Source of the DNA: JADFSZ01 sp022560555 [NCBI: PVC group bacterium]
Lineage (GTDB): Bacteria > GCA-001730085 > JADFSZ01
Reading direction: 5' to 3'
Length of the DNA: 9,426 bases
Assembly (NCBI GenBank): GCA_022560555.1
Contig: JADFSZ010000055.1
Coordinates: forward strand, 1-9,426
Position numbers and translations under genes: made by a program. Below are positions 1 to 9,426 of this stretch, piece by piece; position 1 is the first letter of the stretch, and each line of letters opens with the position of its first letter. A model generated the notes under the pieces. It saw only the letters and a list, made by a program, of their open reading frames with translations. It was not told the origin of the DNA and searched no databases.

Positions 1-90
1 ATTATGATTCTAACCATGGGTTCATTGGTCCTTTTTATTGTTGTCGCGATGATGCTCCCGATATTCCAAATGAACTCCATGCTTGGCTAG
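1..90 (+). CDS. gspF: Type II secretion inner-membrane platform protein GspF, C-terminal end only
   Basis: Frame 1 is open from the window edge to a TAG stop and encodes 29 residues. They include a hydrophobic stretch ending in AMMLPIFQMN, which matches the conserved last transmembrane segment and tail of the GspF/PilC family (typically FIVxAMLLPIFxMN). GspF is the polytopic inner-membrane platform that couples the GspE ATPase to pseudopilus assembly. Its position just before gspG is the standard T2SS order (E-F-G-H). The rest of the gene lies outside the window, so nothing can be said about its length or N-terminal cytoplasmic domains. Confidence 0.85.
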   Translation: MMILTMGSLVLFIVVAMMLPIFQMNSMLG

Positions 91-245: not shown

Positions 246-680
246 ATGTTGATTAAAACTAATAATGCATTTACTCTCATCGAGCTCATGCTTGTGATCA
301 TTATTATCGGGGTTTTGGGGACAATGGCCGTGAAAAATCTCAAAGGCCGGTCGGGTGAAGCCCGTATGGCTGTTGCCAGGGCGGATATAGAGACGAACAT
401 TGCCGGAGCCTTGGATCTGTATGAGCTTGATAATGGCCTGTATCCCACAACGGATCAGGGGCTCGCAGCGCTGATCAGAAAACCATCATCAGCGAAAAAT
501 TGGAATGGCCCCTATCTAAAGAAGAGAAGAATCCCGAAAGATCCATGGGGCAATCCGTATCAATTTCAAAACCCCGGGACAAACAATACGGACGATTATG
601 ATCTTTTCTCGATGGGAAAAGACGCTTCTCCCGGAACCGAAGATGATATTAGTAATTGGGATGATGAGGATGAGTTTTAG
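246..680 (+). CDS. gspG: Major pseudopilin GspG
   Basis: This 144-residue protein is the major subunit of the T2SS pseudopilus, made in the inner membrane and assembled into a short periplasmic filament. It has an 8-residue leader, MLIKTNNA, then the class III prepilin motif FTLIE with Glu at mature +5 and a hydrophobic helix to about residue 28. The family's C-terminal signatures follow: LDNGLYPTTDQGL (61-73), DPWGNPYQFQNPG (99-111) and the calcium-binding loop MGKDASPGTEDDISNW (123-138). The residue before the cleavage site is Ala rather than the usual Gly. The protein ends in an acidic tail (DDEDEF). Length and domain order are normal for GspG. The ATG is set by the strong Shine-Dalgarno and the leader length. 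gspH starts inside or just after its 3' end. Confidence 0.95.
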   Translation: MLIKTNNAFTLIELMLVIIIIGVLGTMAVKNLKGRSGEARMAVARADIETNIAGALDLYELDNGLYPTTDQGLAALIRKPSSAKNWNGPYLKKRRIPKDPWGNPYQFQNPGTNNTDDYDLFSMGKDASPGTEDDISNWDDEDEF

Positions 681-1212
681 AAAGTGTTTTATGGGGAGTT
701 CAAGCGGCCGTTTTAGGGAAAGTTTTAAAGTTTTTTTTAAAAAAGATTCAAAAAAAGCGTTTACCCTTATAGAGCTTCTTATTGTCGTGGTGATCGTGAG
801 CATTTTGGTTGTGATCACCGTACCCCGGTTTCGGGGAAGTTTTGAATTTATACGCTTTGAAAATAGTGTGAGGAATTTTACGAAACTTGTTCGTTACGGG
901 CAAGACCTTGCTGTGATTTACCGGAGACACTATCGATTGAAAGTGGAGGAGAGAGAAGGGGCGTTCTGGCTGGAGCACGAAGGAAAAACAAAGGGACGTT
1001 TTGAAAAGGTTTCGGGAAAATGGGGGAAAAAATATTTTATACCGAGTTTTGTTGACCTCAAAACCGATAAAAAAGAATACGTCTTTTATTTGGATGGCCG
1101 TTCCCAAACAGGAGAAGTTGAATTTGAATTTAGGGATCGGTATACGTATACGGTTAAACTTCTTGGTACGCGAGGACATGTTGAAATCATAGAGGAAACC
1201 AATCGACAGTGA
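670..1212 (+). CDS. gspH: Minor pseudopilin GspH-like protein
   Basis: This protein is assigned as a minor pseudopilin of the T2SS tip complex. It has a basic leader ending KKDSKKA, then FTLIELLIVVVIVSILVV (Glu at mature +5) as the N-terminal helix, followed by a soluble domain of about 130 residues. That domain is rich in beta-type stretches such as KKEYVFYLDGRSQTGEVEFEF, as expected for GspH. Cleavage would be after Ala. The start is uncertain: in-frame ATGs lie at 661, 664, 670 and 691, none with a convincing Shine-Dalgarno. I chose 670 (180 aa, 11-bp overlap with gspG); 691 would give 173 aa and a 23-residue leader. The leader is long for a prepilin and is encoded by A/T homopolymer runs. 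The GspH call rests mainly on gene order, since the globular domain is poorly conserved. Confidence 0.82.
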   Translation: MSFRKCFMGSSSGRFRESFKVFFKKDSKKAFTLIELLIVVVIVSILVVITVPRFRGSFEFIRFENSVRNFTKLVRYGQDLAVIYRRHYRLKVEEREGAFWLEHEGKTKGRFEKVSGKWGKKYFIPSFVDLKTDKKEYVFYLDGRSQTGEVEFEFRDRYTYTVKLLGTRGHVEIIEETNRQ

Positions 1213-1610
1213 GTCCACCCCCCATAAAGGAAATAGAAAAAAAACAGGGCATGCTTCTTTTGGAAGTGATTGTCGCCATGGTTGTTTTATCTGTCGGTTT
1301 GACCATGATGATGCGGTCTTTTTCGATTTCCATTAAGGCGGCTCGCGTGGTTCAGAATTATTTTTACGCGGTTGTGCGCGTGGAAAATCTTGTTTGGGAT
1401 CTGGAAGAGAACTATGCGGGCCTGCAGGGTGAAGGTAAAAGAAGCGATATGTACGGTGAATATCAGACAGCGGTCGATTCGTTTGATCTTAGTCCTCAGG
1501 CCCTTAAAAAATCGACCGTTGAAGTCTATTGGCAAGAAGGAAAACGAAGAGAAGGCGTAAAATTCACTTCCTTGTTTTATGTCCCCCTACCCGGTGAGTC
1601 AGAGCGATGA
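1209..1610 (+). CDS. gspI: Minor pseudopilin GspI
   Basis: This 133-residue minor pseudopilin is predicted to join GspJ and GspK in the pseudopilus tip that primes assembly. The leader is 14 residues ending KKQG, followed by MLLLEVIVAMVVLSVGL. Glu is at mature +5 and Gly at -1. The MLLLEVIVAM form is typical of GspI, as opposed to FTLIE in G, H and J. The start is GTG at 1209, overlapping the gspH TGA (GTGA); the next ATG (1251) would remove the leader. An AGAGGA lies about 12 bases upstream. The C-terminal half (STVEVYWQEGKRREGVKFTSLFYVP) matches the GspI pattern of a short beta region ending in a strand. Its end overlaps gspJ by ATGA. Confidence 0.9.
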   Translation: MSPPPIKEIEKKQGMLLLEVIVAMVVLSVGLTMMMRSFSISIKAARVVQNYFYAVVRVENLVWDLEENYAGLQGEGKRSDMYGEYQTAVDSFDLSPQALKKSTVEVYWQEGKRREGVKFTSLFYVPLPGESER

Positions 1611-2260
1611 AAAATCAAAAGGCTTTTACCCTGATAGAACTTGTCGTTGCATTGACGATTTTTTCCGTATTGGGCATCGCGGTGTTTTCGACTCTTTCCA
1701 TGGGGCTAAGTTCCTGGCGTAGAGGAGAGAGCCAGGAAAAGGCTTATCAGGATATACGTATTTTTTTCGATGTTCTGGGAGAAGAAATGCGTAACGCCGT
1801 TGACCTTATTGATCAACCCTTTCAGGGAGAGGAACAAAAGATTAAATTTGCTTTTATCAAAAATGTTTACAATCCCGAAGATGCTTCTACAAATAAAGAG
1901 CTTGGTATTGTGGAGTATCTGTTGAAAAAGGAAAAATCAGCTTTGACTCTCTATCGGCAATATTGGGCGTATCCGGCTGATCCGAAGGCAAAGAACAGGG
2001 GCGGCAAAATTCTTTCAGGTATCAAGGAAATATCATTAAAATACTGGGGGTATGAATCAAACGAAGACGAAAGCCAAGAGCCTCCTGTTTACACATGGGC
2101 ATCATCTTGGGATTCATTGGGAGAATTACCGGGAGGCGTCAAAATCCATCTGGCCATGATGGCCGAAAAAGATTATGATCCAAAAATTTCGATTGAGAAG
2201 AAAATTAAAATATTCAGCGGCTCAGGAAAGATTGTCCGTTCTGAAGAGGCAGGAATCTAA
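1607..2260 (+). CDS. gspJ: Minor pseudopilin GspJ
   Basis: This 217-residue minor pseudopilin is a component of the I-J-K tip complex. The short leader MKNQKA is followed by FTLIELVVALTIFSVLGIAVF, with Glu at +5 and Ala at -1. The periplasmic domain of about 190 residues is the right size for GspJ. It includes the early conserved SSWRRGESQEKAYQDIR region (31-47) and a late GVKIHLAMM strand (177-185). The ATG overlaps the gspI stop by ATGA and has little Shine-Dalgarno of its own, so translation is probably coupled. Ordering between I and K supports the assignment. Confidence 0.9.
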   Translation: MKNQKAFTLIELVVALTIFSVLGIAVFSTLSMGLSSWRRGESQEKAYQDIRIFFDVLGEEMRNAVDLIDQPFQGEEQKIKFAFIKNVYNPEDASTNKELGIVEYLLKKEKSALTLYRQYWAYPADPKAKNRGGKILSGIKEISLKYWGYESNEDESQEPPVYTWASSWDSLGELPGGVKIHLAMMAEKDYDPKISIEKKIKIFSGSGKIVRSEEAGI

Positions 2261-2261
2261 A

Positions 2262-3401
2262 TTGTACACAAAGAACGGGGCGATTCTTATCCTCACCCTA
2301 TGGGTCATGATGATTATCACGGTTCTCGCGGTTGGCTTAGCGTTTAGAATGAGAATTGAGATTCGGATGACGCAAATTTTCATTGCCAAAACCGAAATTG
2401 TGGAAATCGCAAAATCCGCCCTCTATCGAGCGTTAGGTGAATCGATAAATGATCTCGAGCCTGTCGGCGAAGAGGAGGCTCAAGGCGGCGACGTTTTTTC
2501 CTACAATCTTTCTTGGGCCGTAAACACTGACTTGTATAAGGACATTGAGTTGGGGCGAGGCCGATTTGATATCCGATTTGAATACGAGCTATCCGAAGAT
2601 GAGAATCAAAAGGAAATATTTTACGGACTCAAAGATGAACAATCATTGATTAACTTAAATTTTGTGGCTTCGATGAAGGATAAAAGGAAAGCCAAGAGGA
2701 TCATTAAATCTATACTTGGCCCTGATGTGGATCAAGATGAAAAAACGCTTGTTGCCGGAGCCATTATTGATTGGGTCGACAAATCCGAAGAAGACGGAGG
2801 TTTATCTGAAGTTAGTATCGGGGGAGCCGAAGACAGCTTTTATGCCTCTTTGAGCCCGGCCTATCAAGCGAGAGATGGTTTGTTAAAGACCGTTGAGGAA
2901 TTAAAATTTGTCAGGGGTGTTACGGATGAGATTTATGAGCGCTTGAAGAAATATGTGACGGTTTACGGAAAGGGAAGCACAAATATTAATACGGCGCCGA
3001 GAGAGGTGCTTTTGGCTTTGGGGAATTTGGGGGAGAGTTTTGTTGATGCCATGTTGGATTGGCGTTTAGGTGAAGATGGCCGTATGGGGACCGATGATGA
3101 CGGCATTTTTACGAGCCTTCAGGATATAGAAGTGAATTTAGGGTATCCCTCCGGAAGTATCGCGGCTCTTGATGAGCTTCGGCAAACGAAGACCGTTTCA
3201 AAAGAAGCCGAAGATCAAGGCTTGGAAGCGGCTCAACTCATCGGTGTGACCTCCGATGTGTTTCGAGTACATATTTTTGCCTCTTTGGAAAACAGCCCGG
3301 TAACAAAGGAGCTTGATGTGGTGTTTCAAAGAGAGCGTCCCGAGCCTGGTGAAGAAAACAGTATTGAAAAGTACCGGATCCTTTATTGGTTTGAGAAATG
3401 A
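2262..3401 (+). CDS. gspK: Minor pseudopilin GspK (TTG start)
   Basis: This 379-residue protein is the largest minor pseudopilin and caps the T2SS pseudopilus tip. The TTG at 2262 is chosen as the start: AGGA (2251-2254) lies 7 bases before it, gspJ ends 1 base before it, and it gives a 6-residue leader ending TKNG, followed by AILILTLWVMMIITVLAVGLA. Like other GspK proteins it lacks Glu at +5. Internal signatures are GAIIDWVD with the following acidic stretch, NINTAP (241-246) in the SAM-like domain typical of the family, and an Asp-rich loop GEDGRMGTDDD (270-280) resembling calcium-binding loops. An upstream ATG at 2175 is in frame, but using it would bury the leader behind 29 extra residues and overlap gspJ by 86 bp. 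Confidence 0.92.
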   Translation: MYTKNGAILILTLWVMMIITVLAVGLAFRMRIEIRMTQIFIAKTEIVEIAKSALYRALGESINDLEPVGEEEAQGGDVFSYNLSWAVNTDLYKDIELGRGRFDIRFEYELSEDENQKEIFYGLKDEQSLINLNFVASMKDKRKAKRIIKSILGPDVDQDEKTLVAGAIIDWVDKSEEDGGLSEVSIGGAEDSFYASLSPAYQARDGLLKTVEELKFVRGVTDEIYERLKKYVTVYGKGSTNINTAPREVLLALGNLGESFVDAMLDWRLGEDGRMGTDDDGIFTSLQDIEVNLGYPSGSIAALDELRQTKTVSKEAEDQGLEAAQLIGVTSDVFRVHIFASLENSPVTKELDVVFQRERPEPGEENSIEKYRILYWFEK

Positions 3402-3433
3402 GTTGCTTAGAGAAACGAAAAGAACATGTATGA
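3398..3433 (+). other. Possible 11-codon relay ORF between gspK and gspL
   Basis: An ATG overlaps the gspK TGA (ATGA at 3398-3401) and opens a short frame encoding MSCLEKRKEHV. Its TGA overlaps the gspL ATG in a second ATGA (3430-3433). Ribosomes ending gspK could restart here and then again at gspL, carrying coupling across a 28-bp gap. It also covers the region where the gspL ribosome binding site should lie. The peptide itself has no recognisable function. The arrangement may be chance. Confidence 0.3.
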
Positions 3434-5250
3434 AAACATATGATATCGTATTGAAATCTTTTAACCTGAAGCGTGTCGATATTGCGCGTCAGTGTCTATC
3501 GGGCTTGTTCAAATTAACTGACGAACAGGCTCAGAACATATTAAATCAGGCTCCCGTCATTGTGCTTGAGCGTGTTTTGAAAAAAGAAGCTCACGTTGTC
3601 TCTAAAGAATTGAAGAACGGTGGAATTATAGTAAAAAGATATCCCGCCGGGCAGATGGGCAAAAAAGTTTCACGTATCGTATGGCCAAGCCCCCCCTCCA
3701 TACATGTACCCGGCACTCCCAAGGTTCGTAAAATCAAAACAACGATTTTGCGTGTCGTACGAAAAACCCAGCCCCAAGGACCTAAAGGAACGTTGTTAGG
3801 AATAGAATTCAATGCCGGGATTCTAAAAATGATAAAGTTTTCCGAGGAAAGAGATGGTTTGAAAACTGATCGTGTCGTTGTCTCTCAATTAAATGAATTG
3901 TCGGATGAAGAGATTGTCAGTCAGATCAAAACAATCATCTATCAATATAAAATGCAGTCAGAGCATATTATCGGCGTTCTTCCCCGCGAATATACTACGG
4001 CTCGCATGCTCGATTTTCCGTCCGCGGATGATACGGAAATTGAAAATATGGTCCGGTTCCAAGCCGTCAAAATGGTTCCTTTTTCAAAGGAGGAAATGAT
4101 TGTTGATTTTCAGGTTTTAGGGGCCTCTCAAGAAGGATTTTCCCGTGTGATGGTTTTTATCGTCAAGCGGGATATTATTGAGAGGTATCTTGGCATTTTC
4201 GCGAAATCAAATCTTTTCCCCACGCGGCTGACGATTAATACATCTGAAATGTGCGCCGCTCTCGGCGATTATTTTAAGGAGATCCGCCTGAATGAAACCT
4301 CCTCAACCATGGTCATTGATTTGGACTATCGAAATTCCAACATTCTTGTGTTTGATCATCAGTGGCCCCTGATCACGCGTTCCGTTGATATTGGGCTTGT
4401 GGATTTGGATGACCAAACCTTGCCCCGTACTCAGATCGAGAACGCGTGTCAGCAGCTTGCGGTTGAAATCCGGACAACGATAACGGCTGTCCGTAAGGAT
4501 TTGAAAGGACAAAAACTTGACCAAATTGTCGTTGTGACCGGTTCTGAGAGTATCTTTACCTGCCTCAAGACGTATGTACAGTCCTTTGGGGAAAATCTCA
4601 AAAGGATCGATTCGTCCCTGCTCTTAAAAAGAAAGATCACGGCTCATAAAAAGGATGTTTCCGAATTTGTATCTTTCCTGGGATGCATGGGCTTGCTCGT
4701 CCGGAGTAAAAAGCGTCCGTTGAATCTGATGCCGAAGGAACTCTTGGAAAAGAGAAAGCACATACTATTTCGGCAAAATATCCAACGTCTCGCCTTTTTA
4801 TCAGGGGTCCTTTTGGTATCCCTGGGGCTGGTATTTTCGGGGCATCTGGGACGTTACAAAAAGTATATTCGAGCGTTGGAGGCCAAAATCGAATCGTTCG
4901 GTCCTCAAGCCCGTAAAATAGAAGTTATGAAAAAAAGGCTTTCCATCTTAAATGATCAATTTGCTCCCGAAAAATCTGTTTTGAATGTTTTAAAAGAGCT
5001 TTATCGTCTCATTCCTGATGACGTTTTTATCAATCAATTCGAATTTGAAGATAGCCGCGTTGTGTCGATTCGGGGGTCCGCCAAAAACCGTGTTGATGTA
5101 TATGCCATGGTAAAAACCATGGACGAATCAGGGTTGTTTGAAAGTATTGAGCTGAGAGGCGGAATTAGCACTCGGAAAATTCGTCAAGAAGTACTATATG
5201 ATTTTAACGTATACGGAAAAATAAAAACGAGCATGAAAGAAGCGAATTAA
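3430..5250 (+). CDS. gspL: GspL-like T2SS platform protein: L7/L12-like domain + PilM-like actin fold + PilN-like domain
   Basis: This 606-residue protein should be the cytoplasmic and inner-membrane adaptor binding the GspE ATPase. Residues 1-71 resemble the ribosomal L7/L12 C-terminal domain (YDIVLK start, an AP at 41-42, and K-x-x-A-x5-L-x3-G-x-x-V near the end). A basic Pro-rich linker follows (72-119). An actin/PilM-like fold spans about 120-425 with altered nucleotide motifs: GIEFNAGILK (124-133), VIDLDYRNSN (295-304) and VVTGSES (368-374). The PilN-like part starts with LNLMPKELL (431-439). It has one membrane segment (about 453-470), a short coiled coil and a periplasmic ferredoxin-like domain (about 525-600). 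The ATG at 3430 is the first good start after gspK. Its place between gspK and gspM supports the call. Typical GspL proteins are about 400 residues, so this one is long. Confidence 0.85.
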   Translation: MKTYDIVLKSFNLKRVDIARQCLSGLFKLTDEQAQNILNQAPVIVLERVLKKEAHVVSKELKNGGIIVKRYPAGQMGKKVSRIVWPSPPSIHVPGTPKVRKIKTTILRVVRKTQPQGPKGTLLGIEFNAGILKMIKFSEERDGLKTDRVVVSQLNELSDEEIVSQIKTIIYQYKMQSEHIIGVLPREYTTARMLDFPSADDTEIENMVRFQAVKMVPFSKEEMIVDFQVLGASQEGFSRVMVFIVKRDIIERYLGIFAKSNLFPTRLTINTSEMCAALGDYFKEIRLNETSSTMVIDLDYRNSNILVFDHQWPLITRSVDIGLVDLDDQTLPRTQIENACQQLAVEIRTTITAVRKDLKGQKLDQIVVVTGSESIFTCLKTYVQSFGENLKRIDSSLLLKRKITAHKKDVSEFVSFLGCMGLLVRSKKRPLNLMPKELLEKRKHILFRQNIQRLAFLSGVLLVSLGLVFSGHLGRYKKYIRALEAKIESFGPQARKIEVMKKRLSILNDQFAPEKSVLNVLKELYRLIPDDVFINQFEFEDSRVVSIRGSAKNRVDVYAMVKTMDESGLFESIELRGGISTRKIRQEVLYDFNVYGKIKTSMKEAN

Positions 5251-5251
5251 G

Positions 5252-5791
5252 ATGTTGTCTGTTCAGTTATCAAAAAGGGAAAAAAATATATTCATGCTTT
5301 GTGTTATCGTTATACTGGGCGCTCTTTTTTATACGTATATGGTTCAGCCCGTCGTGCGGTATGCGGGCAGTATCTTTGGACAGATAGACGAACTTGAAAC
5401 TTCCTTGGCTCACGACCGCAGGATTCTTGCTCTCGCTTCGACGATCGAAGCCAACTATCAAGAAATCATCGGACGGGTTAAAATGACTGATTCTGATGAT
5501 ATCAATGTGATGTTTACGGATATCGATCGTATCGCGGCCATTCATCAAATTGATATGACGGATATTAAGCCGCTCGATACAAAAGAAATGGAATTTTATA
5601 TCGAAAACAAAATTAATATTGAAGGGTTTGCCGCGGTTGAGAATCTTGTCAGGTTTATTTATGAAATTGAATCAGTCGCGAATCTCATGAAAGTGTATAA
5701 ACTGAGACTGACAGCCCGGAATCGAGCGGGCACAAAAGGGGTGGGGTTTAGTATGATTATTAATCGGGTGCGGATACCCACTCATGAGTAA
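5252..5791 (+). CDS. gspM: T2SS platform protein GspM (PilO-like)
   Basis: This 179-residue bitopic inner-membrane protein has a short cytoplasmic N-terminus (MLSVQLSKREKN), one membrane segment at about residues 13-32, a periplasmic helix to about residue 75 that could form a coiled coil, and a C-terminal alpha/beta domain of ferredoxin-like pattern. The last part includes INIEGFAAVENLVRFIYEIE, a motif shared by PilO and GspM proteins. It is expected to dimerise with the PilN-like half of GspL. It starts 1 base after the gspL stop, with AAAGAAG upstream as a weak ribosome binding site. The call rests on position and topology more than on strong sequence identity; PilO-like would be an equally fair name. 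Confidence 0.85.
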   Translation: MLSVQLSKREKNIFMLCVIVILGALFYTYMVQPVVRYAGSIFGQIDELETSLAHDRRILALASTIEANYQEIIGRVKMTDSDDINVMFTDIDRIAAIHQIDMTDIKPLDTKEMEFYIENKINIEGFAAVENLVRFIYEIESVANLMKVYKLRLTARNRAGTKGVGFSMIINRVRIPTHE

Positions 5792-6580: not shown

Positions 6581-7684
6581 TTATTTGACCCCGGCCATGT
6601 CCGGAACAGGCAGGGGAACGTCTTTTTTGTGGGGAAGGTGCGGCATTTTTTCTGAATCAGGAGGGATGATGTTCGGCCCCAAAATCGTGCCTTTGATCGT
6701 TGCGAAAAATCCTTTGAGAGATCCGAACGTATAATCGACCGCCGTTGGTTCGTGACCGCAGTGGACCATGCAGTTGACACATTTTGGATTCCCGCTCGCT
6801 TGTCCGTATTTGTGCCACTCGGTTTTTTCCATGAGATCCTTAAACGTCGGAACATATCCTTCTTGCAGAAGATAGCAGGGCAATTGCCAGCCGAAAATAT
6901 TGTATGTTGGATTTCCCCATGGGGTACATTCAAAATGGCGTGATCCCGCAATGAATTCCAAAAAGAGAGGGGAATGATTAAACTTCCAGCTCTTTTTAGG
7001 TCGATAAAGCAACTCTCTAAAGAATTTATAGGATTGGTTTCTTTTAAGGAAGTGCTCTTGATCCGGAGCTTTGTCATAGCTGTAACCGGGAGACAGCATC
7101 ATGCTCTCAACGCCTAGAGCCATCATGTCATCCAAAAACCCGCGAAAATGTTCGCCGTCATGCCCGTCAAAAATGGTTGTATTGGTGGTGACGCGAAATC
7201 CGCGCTCAACGGTTTTTTTGATGGCCTGTACGGCTCTTTTATATGTCCCGTTTAAGCACACGGATATATCGTGCTCTTTCTCAGGTCCATCCATATGAAT
7301 GGAAAAACTCAAATATTTAGAAGGTGTGTATTGATCCATCTTCTTTTCAAGCAGAAGAGCGTTTGTGCATAGATATATGTATTTCTTTCGCTTGATGAGT
7401 GCTTCGACAATTTGAGGCATTTGAGGATGAAGTAAAGGCTCTCCTCCCGGAATGCTCACAATGGGAGCGCCGCATTCTTCGTCGGCTTGCATGCACTGCT
7501 CAAAACTTAACTGCTTCTTAAGAATATCTGCAGGATATTGGATTTTTCCGCAGCCCTTACAGGCAAGGTTGCACCGAAAGAGGGGCTCTAACATTAAAAC
7601 CAGCGGATATCGTTTACGTCTTTTGAGATGCTGCTTGATGACGTACGATGTGACAGTCCACATTTGTGAAATTGGAACACTCAT
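6581..7684 (-). CDS. hpnH: Radical SAM adenosylhopane synthase HpnH
   Basis: HpnH joins the 5'-deoxyadenosyl radical from SAM to a hopene (diploptene) to form adenosylhopane, the first step in making C35 bacteriohopanepolyols. The N-terminal block RKRYPLVLMLEPLFRCNLAC (23-42) is characteristic. The radical SAM cluster cysteines are C38, C42 and C45, and the SAM-binding GGEP is at 80-83. YLCTNALLLEKK follows, with C106 at the position I recall being reported as important for catalysis. Family features continue with SPGYSYDKAPDQEHFL (198-213), CTPWGNPTYNIFGWQ (253-267) and a C-terminal CVNCMVHCG (302-310). The last ~30 residues are a Pro/His-rich tail. On the - strand AAGGA lies 9 bases before the ATG, and mtaB ends 13 bp upstream, so the two form an operon. 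No other hopanoid gene is in the window. Confidence 0.93.
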   Translation of the reverse strand: MSVPISQMWTVTSYVIKQHLKRRKRYPLVLMLEPLFRCNLACKGCGKIQYPADILKKQLSFEQCMQADEECGAPIVSIPGGEPLLHPQMPQIVEALIKRKKYIYLCTNALLLEKKMDQYTPSKYLSFSIHMDGPEKEHDISVCLNGTYKRAVQAIKKTVERGFRVTTNTTIFDGHDGEHFRGFLDDMMALGVESMMLSPGYSYDKAPDQEHFLKRNQSYKFFRELLYRPKKSWKFNHSPLFLEFIAGSRHFECTPWGNPTYNIFGWQLPCYLLQEGYVPTFKDLMEKTEWHKYGQASGNPKCVNCMVHCGHEPTAVDYTFGSLKGFFATIKGTILGPNIIPPDSEKMPHLPHKKDVPLPVPDMAGVK

Positions 7685-9005: not shown

Positions 9006-9207
9006 CCTTTACTCTCATTAAAAGTTAATAAACGTGGACTTATTCTAACTATAATACTATGATCTTTCTATTTAAATCTCAAGTACCTTAAACAGCTGCG
9101 TCAAGAAGTGTCTGATTTTAAAACAAGAATTAAGATATAGATAACATTAAAGTTAAGAAGAATTTTATTGTCCTTATTTCGTCCGCGTGTACATAAGAGA
9201 AATTTTC
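9006..9207. other. AT-rich divergent intergenic region between mtaB and lepB
   Basis: This 202-bp stretch separates the divergent mtaB and lepB starts and must contain both promoters if they are independently transcribed. I see no RNA gene, convincing terminator or long ORF. A near-direct repeat, CATTAAAAGTTAA at 9016-9028 and CATTAAAGTTAA at 9145-9156, lies near each end, but in such AT-rich DNA it may be chance. No clear -35/-10 pair is visible for lepB. Confidence 0.5.
9054..9082 (-). promoter_or_regulatory. Candidate sigma70-type promoter for mtaB-hpnH
   Basis: On the - strand TTGAGA (9077-9082; 5 of 6 to the -35 consensus) is followed after 17 bp by TAGTAT (9054-9059; 4 of 6 to the -10 consensus). 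This would place the transcript start about 40 bases before the mtaB ATG. In AT-rich DNA such matches arise readily, and an overlapping TATTAT with a longer spacer is an alternative -10. Confidence 0.25.
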
Positions 9208-9426
9208 ATGACACGGTTAAAAAAGCGAAAGTTTTATGATTCCGCATATGTTCCGCACGAAAATCGAAAGGCCACTATTTTAGCCTGTATTATGCTGTGG
9301 TCTTTGATATTTTGCTTTGTCATCACAAAATTTATTCTTGGAACCGTTGACATTGTCGGGCACAGCATGCTTCCAACGCTCAAAGACCAAGAGCGGTATG
9401 TGATAAATCGGATCGCGTACAATTTT
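9208..9426 (+). CDS. lepB: Signal peptidase I, N-terminal part (cut by window end)
   Basis: This type I signal peptidase cleaves signal peptides from exported proteins at the outer face of the inner membrane. Only the first 73 residues are present. A basic N-terminus (MTRLKKRK) is followed by a membrane segment at about residues 22-44 and then VDIVGHSMLPTL (47-58), the family's box with the catalytic Ser53. The catalytic Lys and the remaining boxes would lie beyond the window, so an intact gene cannot be confirmed. AAGAGA, 7 bases before the ATG, is a weak ribosome binding site. Functionally it fits beside a T2SS, whose substrates first need Sec/Tat export and signal cleavage, but it is a general housekeeping enzyme. 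Confidence 0.92.
   Translation, partial: MTRLKKRKFYDSAYVPHENRKATILACIMLWSLIFCFVITKFILGTVDIVGHSMLPTLKDQERYVINRIAYNF

Follow-up and report, generated by a model that had tools for sequence, protein, structure and literature searches.

The GspL protein of the type II secretion system (T2SS) encoded on contig JADFSZ010000055.1 of the PVC group bacterium JADFSZ01 sp022560555 begins with a domain (residues 3-70) whose match to the C-terminal domain (CTD) of ribosomal protein L7/L12 (bL12) was confirmed by sequence comparison. The favored interpretation, given a probability of roughly two in three, is that this platform protein gained a diverged L12 CTD-like N-terminal domain that would act as a cytoplasmic docking arm for one more protein partner.

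Architecture of GspL and its locus

The window, that is, the whole stretch of DNA analysed, is 9,426 bases long and represents an entire contig (C23) of a 1.66 Mb assembly of 222 contigs. T2SS genes occur on it in the order F'-G-H-I-J-K-L-M, starting inside the end of gspF. The gspL gene (3430-5250, + strand, 606 residues) lies between gspK and gspM, and this position in a gsp operon, together with a PilM-like domain, one transmembrane (TM) segment and a PilN-like domain, identifies the product as GspL. The features are as follows.

1..90, + strand: C-terminal end of GspF (translation; ending the same as in GspF of contig C94)
246..680, + strand: GspG major pseudopilin (PF08334, E 5.2e-36)
598..1212, + strand: GspH-like pseudopilin, open frame (PF07963, E 1.9e-7; operon position)
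1209..1610, + strand: GspI-like pseudopilin (prepilin-like start, by eye, and operon position)
1607..2260, + strand: GspJ (PF11612, E 7.8e-7)
2175..3401, + strand: GspK, open frame without a fixed start (PF21687, E 5.2e-17)
3430..3642, + strand: L7/L12 CTD-like module, GspL residues 1-71, modelled fold 3-72 (PF00542, HMM, L12-guided model, superposition on 1ctf)
3643..3789, + strand: basic, proline-containing linker, residues 72-120 (net charge +11 for 73-120)
3799..4380, + strand: PilM-like actin-fold cytoplasmic domain, residues 124-317 (PF11104, E 2.2e-10, over cut-off)
4780..4836, + strand: single TM segment, residues about 451-469 (hydropathy maximum)
4987..5211, + strand: PilN-like periplasmic domain, residues 520-594 (PF05137, E 6.7e-10, over cut-off)
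5252..5791, + strand: GspM/PilO-like gene (PF04350, E 5.1e-5, over cut-off; PF04612, E 8.3e-5, and NF040576, both below cut-off)

The GspH-like frame probably starts further in than drawn, close to the N-methylation motif at residue 51. For GspL, the ATG at 3430 is a plausible start on sequence grounds; an alternative start codon, TTG, is found at 3403, nine codons upstream. Over the N-terminal domain, codon usage scores 0.127 in the reading frame and below zero in each of the five alternatives, as compared with 0.34 for the PilM part. The frame and start are those described in the original prediction, which would have failed had translation begun near the linker; the in-frame coding signal extends across the domain. 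The linker following the domain is also basic and proline-containing as described there, and the L12-like domain itself carries a charge of +6. The topology of the GspL family places the N-terminal region in the cytoplasm.

A type III pantothenate kinase gene is located 3' of gspM, and genes for HpnH and MtaB, both over the NCBIfam cut-off, lie on the opposite strand. The HpnH adenosyl-hopene transferase (6581-7684, - strand, 525 bits) points to hopanoid synthesis in this small-genome bacterium. The start of a further frame (9187-9426) is broken off by the contig end and contains GHSMLPTL, which we take to be a signal-peptidase-I-like motif. Contig C94 of the same genome encodes GspD-E-F and is likely the upstream part of the gspL locus. 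The two GspF ends (C94:5071-5155 and positions 1-86 of the window) are 96.5% identical over 86 bases and then diverge, as could result from a strain variant, a paralogue or an assembly break. In the genome, the T2SSE ATPase family is matched nine times, and there are several PilM/GspL-like genes (contigs C21, C22, C35, C89, C94, C118, C122 and C187), which is many for 1.66 Mb.

Resemblance of the N-terminal domain to the L7/L12 CTD

The likeness was first proposed from an alignment by eye with the E. coli protein, and its landmarks were all recovered: YDIVLK (residues 4-9), Ala-Pro (41-42), KKEA (51-54), L-x3-G (61-65) and V68, the spacing from YDIVLK to Ala-Pro being 31 residues in GspL and 30 in E. 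coli. Pfam model PF00542 matched GspL residues 1-77 with an E-value of 3.1e-4 (residues 4-66, model positions 1-62 of 67), at a score of 21.4 bits that is below the curated cut-off of 25.9; the E-value for the whole protein is 0.031. In a search of PDB sequences with the domain, all 11 matches at E<=10 are L7/L12 (bL12), the best with an E-value of 0.016. An HMM built from 31 L12 CTDs scored 29.4 bits on the domain, 0.5 on the reversed sequence and 11.6 on the best shuffle (4887 scored of 5000 made). Comparison of the domain with ribosomal L12 by hhalign gave a probability of 91.6% (best of 30 shuffles 4.1%), and that with ClpS 13.7%, confined to residues 4-39 (the highest of 30 shuffles reaching 3.2%). 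The resemblance exceeds chance, and the proposed L7/L12 CTD-like module at the GspL N-terminus stands. The N-terminal dimerisation domain and hinge of bL12 are absent, GspL beginning only a few residues ahead of the CTD-like domain; NCBIfam model TIGR00855 scored 16.2 bits on GspL against a cut-off of 84.4.

Structure prediction bore out the L7/L12 fold in part. AlphaFold2 run on the single sequence of residues 1-81 was uninformative (pLDDT 51.5, pTM 0.37), and Foldseek with that model found nothing under E 0.001 (best E 1.3) and no L12 among the best 50 matches. When residues 1-73 were modelled with an alignment whose other 8 rows were all L12-type, obtained from a DNA-pattern search of viral contigs, the pLDDT was 94.6 and the pTM 0.76, with the beta-alpha-alpha-beta-alpha-beta order of L12. 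The best Foldseek match of this guided model is 1ctf (E 3.1e-5, TM 0.85/0.91), onto which it superimposes in VIA-align at 1.0 Å over 68 residues (Z 13.2). The alignment biased the model towards L12, so that the model is consistent with an L12 fold and is no independent proof of it; the independent support for the relationship comes from the sequence statistics. Structures of ClpS were intermixed with the lower L12 rows (Z 10.4 to 8.5), and penicillin-binding proteins reached 7.6. A kinship in fold between the L12 and ClpS domains, also part of the original prediction, holds for structure, but ClpS is clearly the more distant of the two by sequence. In the viral contigs (L169-L209), a GLGLKEAK stretch occurs in varied, mostly small proteins, and an L12 domain was often partly matched.

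Several of the L12 residues K65, I69, K70, R73, L80, K81 and K84 presumably bind translation GTPases. In a joint alignment these are replaced in the GspL domain by R, R, Q, S, D, E and Q, respectively; the PDB-search alignment pairs R20, instead of Q, with K70, so that the pairing in helix 1 is unsure. K65, I69, K70, R73, K81 and K84 are kept in 30-31 of 31 ribosomal rows, and L80 is likewise invariant or nearly so. Among 21 fused, non-ribosomal rows (see below) they are rarely kept (K65 in 2, I69 in 3, K70 in 2, R73 in 1, L80 in 2, K81 in 0 and K84 in 7). At core positions, L58, P91, A103, G114 and V117 are identical in the GspL domain and V56 and V87 are conservatively replaced. The presumed translation-factor face of bL12 is mostly replaced in the GspL domain. 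The domain is not a ribosome component.

Distribution and kinship of the domain

Searches were made in 386 genomes, comprising that of the organism itself, one other of the same phylum (G001) and the rest, which as far as listed are marked as of the same taxonomic domain. GspL matched 26 of them at E<=1e-12. A total of 34 PilM/PilN-matching frames were read from the loci of these 26 genomes, in-genome paralogues and G001, and 10 further frames in the phyla to which four well-matching genomes belong (9, 5, 4 and 44 genomes; the 4-genome phylum gave none). The resulting 44 frames include one gene counted twice, one downstream PilN piece and one frame cut by a contig edge; a weak match in G001 (L007) is outside the count. 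An L12-like N-terminus was found in 0 of these 44 other GspL/PilM-type frames, the best score being 4.4 bits, which agrees with the suspicion in the original prediction that the extension is not standard GspL architecture. Several of the frames have basic tails of some 30-70 residues, comparable to the present linker, without an L12-like domain (by eye). The second GspL of the organism, on C21 and 22% identical, begins with its PilM domain and has no L12-like domain. In G001, the single L12-like match is a 141-residue frame of L12 size, and the domain is absent from the one PilM frame read. A search of genome contigs with GspL gave one match, from Tepidibacter, to the PilN region only (residues 474-605). 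The L12-like domain on GspL is known from one contig of one assembly, with no orthologue of the same architecture among the genomes searched.

A search with the GspL domain matched 236 of the 386 genomes at E<=1. The 29 best other places fetched were all ribosomal L12 CTDs; lower in the list, two longer frames, on membrane-type proteins, looked like true relatives. Most of the long-frame matches fetched in this single-domain search were apparent chance matches, three of which read like gyrase A (by eye). A four-domain profile that included the GspL domain matched 351 of 386 genomes at E<=0.05, mostly L12 as judged by frame length and not each verified; 14 long-frame stretches were taken among the matches listed. 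One candidate, L106, proved to be ribosomal L12. The non-ribosomal set assembled among the matches listed comprises 21 domains, carried by 15 proteins from 13 genomes, GspL included, with 2 of the 21 chosen by eye. The 14 other proteins, from 12 other genomes, include several with TM segments, proline-rich stretches (by eye) or zinc ribbons. Ten of the 14 were scanned with Pfam: Ribosomal_L12 was above cut-off in 2, at 90.7 bits in a zinc-ribbon protein with two copies and at 27.5 bits in a membrane protein, and in none of the other 8; Yip1, YbjQ, or TPR and peptidase regions were recorded on others. L100:2834-3676 encodes a zinc ribbon with two L12 domains, and L102 and L103 a zinc ribbon with L12-like, TPR and peptidase parts; L104, L097 and L107 also belong to this loose set.

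Membrane proteins with two C-terminal L12-like domains were found just downstream of EF-G genes in genomes G098, G365 and G236 (L063:4579-8272; L222:4635-6659 and from 6691; L223:7579-11366), the other two being 97% and 61% identical to the G098 protein. A gene resembling an alpha/beta hydrolase (by eye) lies upstream in these loci. The two-domain protein may dock EF-G at the membrane. In L228, a protein with TM segment, zinc ribbon and L12-like end (9521-10297) is encoded 2.6 kb from a TypA/BipA-looking gene (12898-14733, judged by eye; 37% identical to EF-G across 156 columns), a proximity that may be due to chance.

By its sequence, the GspL domain appears to resemble this loose set of fused, non-ribosomal L12-like domains. 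Its hhalign probability against the 20 others is 97.7% (best shuffle 11.9%), a value flattered relative to the 91.6% for ribosomal L12 by the presence of the GspL domain in the search profile; the 20 domains reach 98.4% against ribosomal L12. A tree built from 52 rows places the 31 ribosomal domains on one side (support 89/78), with the organism's own L12 among them and the GspL domain outside; finer points of the tree are unsafe because of the few columns and long branches. The GspL domain may be closer to the fused domains than to ribosomal L12, on a comparison subject to this selection bias. Its origin by recent copying of the organism's L12 gene was considered and rejected, given the positions of the two in the tree. 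In the organism's own genome, the wider profile at E<=10 matched only the GspL domain and the L12 gene.

Possible roles of the domain

In the proposed course of events, a diverged L7/L12 CTD-like domain would have been acquired at the N-terminus of a GspL of PilM-TM-PilN type, on a basic, flexible linker. The GspL cytoplasmic domain and the N1 domain of GspE are described in PMC6882859 as pairing 1:1 and as modelled in an outer ring around the GspE hexamer. The added domain would then be positioned cytoplasmically next to the motor, with as many as six such flexible arms surrounding the GspE hub, and the arm could tether one additional protein, either a component of the machine or a regulator, to the platform. 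A docking role is suggested by the uses of the fold and by its repeated joining to other proteins; as to the partner, a machine part is the plainest guess. A narrower form of this interpretation, possible though doubtful, is that the domain is internal to the machine and makes an extra contact to GspE, GspF or a neighbouring GspL, stiffening the GspE-GspL hub; GspE was also one of the candidate recruits in the original prediction. It would fit with the basic nature of domain and linker and with the contacts reported in PMC6882859 and PMC3815138, in which the GspL cytoplasmic domain binds GspE N1 and both contact GspF. It is disfavored by the absence of the domain from the other GspL frames and by GspE of C94, which consists of an ordinary MshEN domain and a motor domain; if C94 is the upstream part of the locus, there is no pointer in GspE to a special docking site.

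Docking of a GTPase of the translation type, such as EF-G or LepA, to the inner membrane, by which the secretion platform would be linked to translation, is considered unlikely. The predicted fold is the same as that of the L12 CTD, which is the common site for translational GTPases according to PMC10931766, and the two-domain membrane protein stands just 3' of the EF-G gene in 3 genomes of 2 families. However, the factor-face residues are mostly replaced in the GspL domain, no EF-G-like match is present on the gspL contig, and the EF-G-linked proteins differ from GspL in architecture. The replaced residues alone do not count out such docking, since the EF-G-linked domains have also lost most of them (K84 is kept in 4 of 6 rows, and K65, K70, R73 and K81 are kept in none). 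Far bolder and very improbable is the generalisation that fused L12-like domains are a bacterial means of bringing translation-type GTPases to the inner membrane, with GspL coupling the T2SS to translation or to an EF-G-like switch. A lineage-specific addition of no functional consequence, or an artefact of assembly, is quite unlikely: the domain is known from one genome only, but it lies in an open frame with coding signal, is diverged with its core preserved, falls outside the ribosomal branch and is no piece of the organism's own rplL gene. The least credible role is that of a ClpS-type adaptor that would work at the membrane and bind N-degron peptides or a Clp ATPase. Structures of ClpS rank high in the fold comparison, but the sequence comparison described above is weak and partial and excludes ClpS as nearest kin, no PF02617 match was obtained at E<=0.01 in the organism's genome, and the Asn-Asp pair that follows strand 1 in most of the ClpS rows is absent. 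This pair presumably has a role in ClpS function.

Comparison with known systems

No report of an L12-like domain on GspL was found in the open-licence literature. What is new is the attachment of a known fold to a known component of the machine, observed to date in a single genome; L12-type modules within unrelated proteins have been published. An extra module on a well-studied platform protein with known cytoplasmic partners (GspE and GspF) offers a handle on what else may dock there. The wider set, in which membrane and zinc-ribbon proteins of bacteria carry L12-like domains and one kind adjoins EF-G genes, has a function that can be tested.

According to PMC7159879, vWA proteins in conflict systems of Bacteroidetes contain inserted L12/ClpS domains; these too have an L12-type extra module, but on another host protein and in another lineage, and are likened here by description, not by sequence. 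In phages, bL12 domains are variably present inside larger, unrelated proteins with the factor-interaction residues conserved, according to PMC6375957, whereas most of the presumed factor-face residues listed above are replaced in the GspL domain. ClpS is alike in fold class (Z up to 10.4), with a weak profile match of the GspL domain that lacks the Asn-Asp pair. The likeness to the bL12 CTD (PF00542) lies in the sequence profile, the order of strands and helices and the predicted fold; the GspL domain differs from bL12 in being joined to GspL without the L12 dimerisation domain, in a one-residue insertion in the first helix region and in the replacement of most factor-face residues. The remainder of the protein resembles GspL and PilM/PilN of type II secretion and type IV pili in its PilM-like domain, TM segment, PilN-like domain and position between GspK and GspM, and it differs from the 44 compared GspL/PilM frames in its extra N-terminal domain of about 72 residues.
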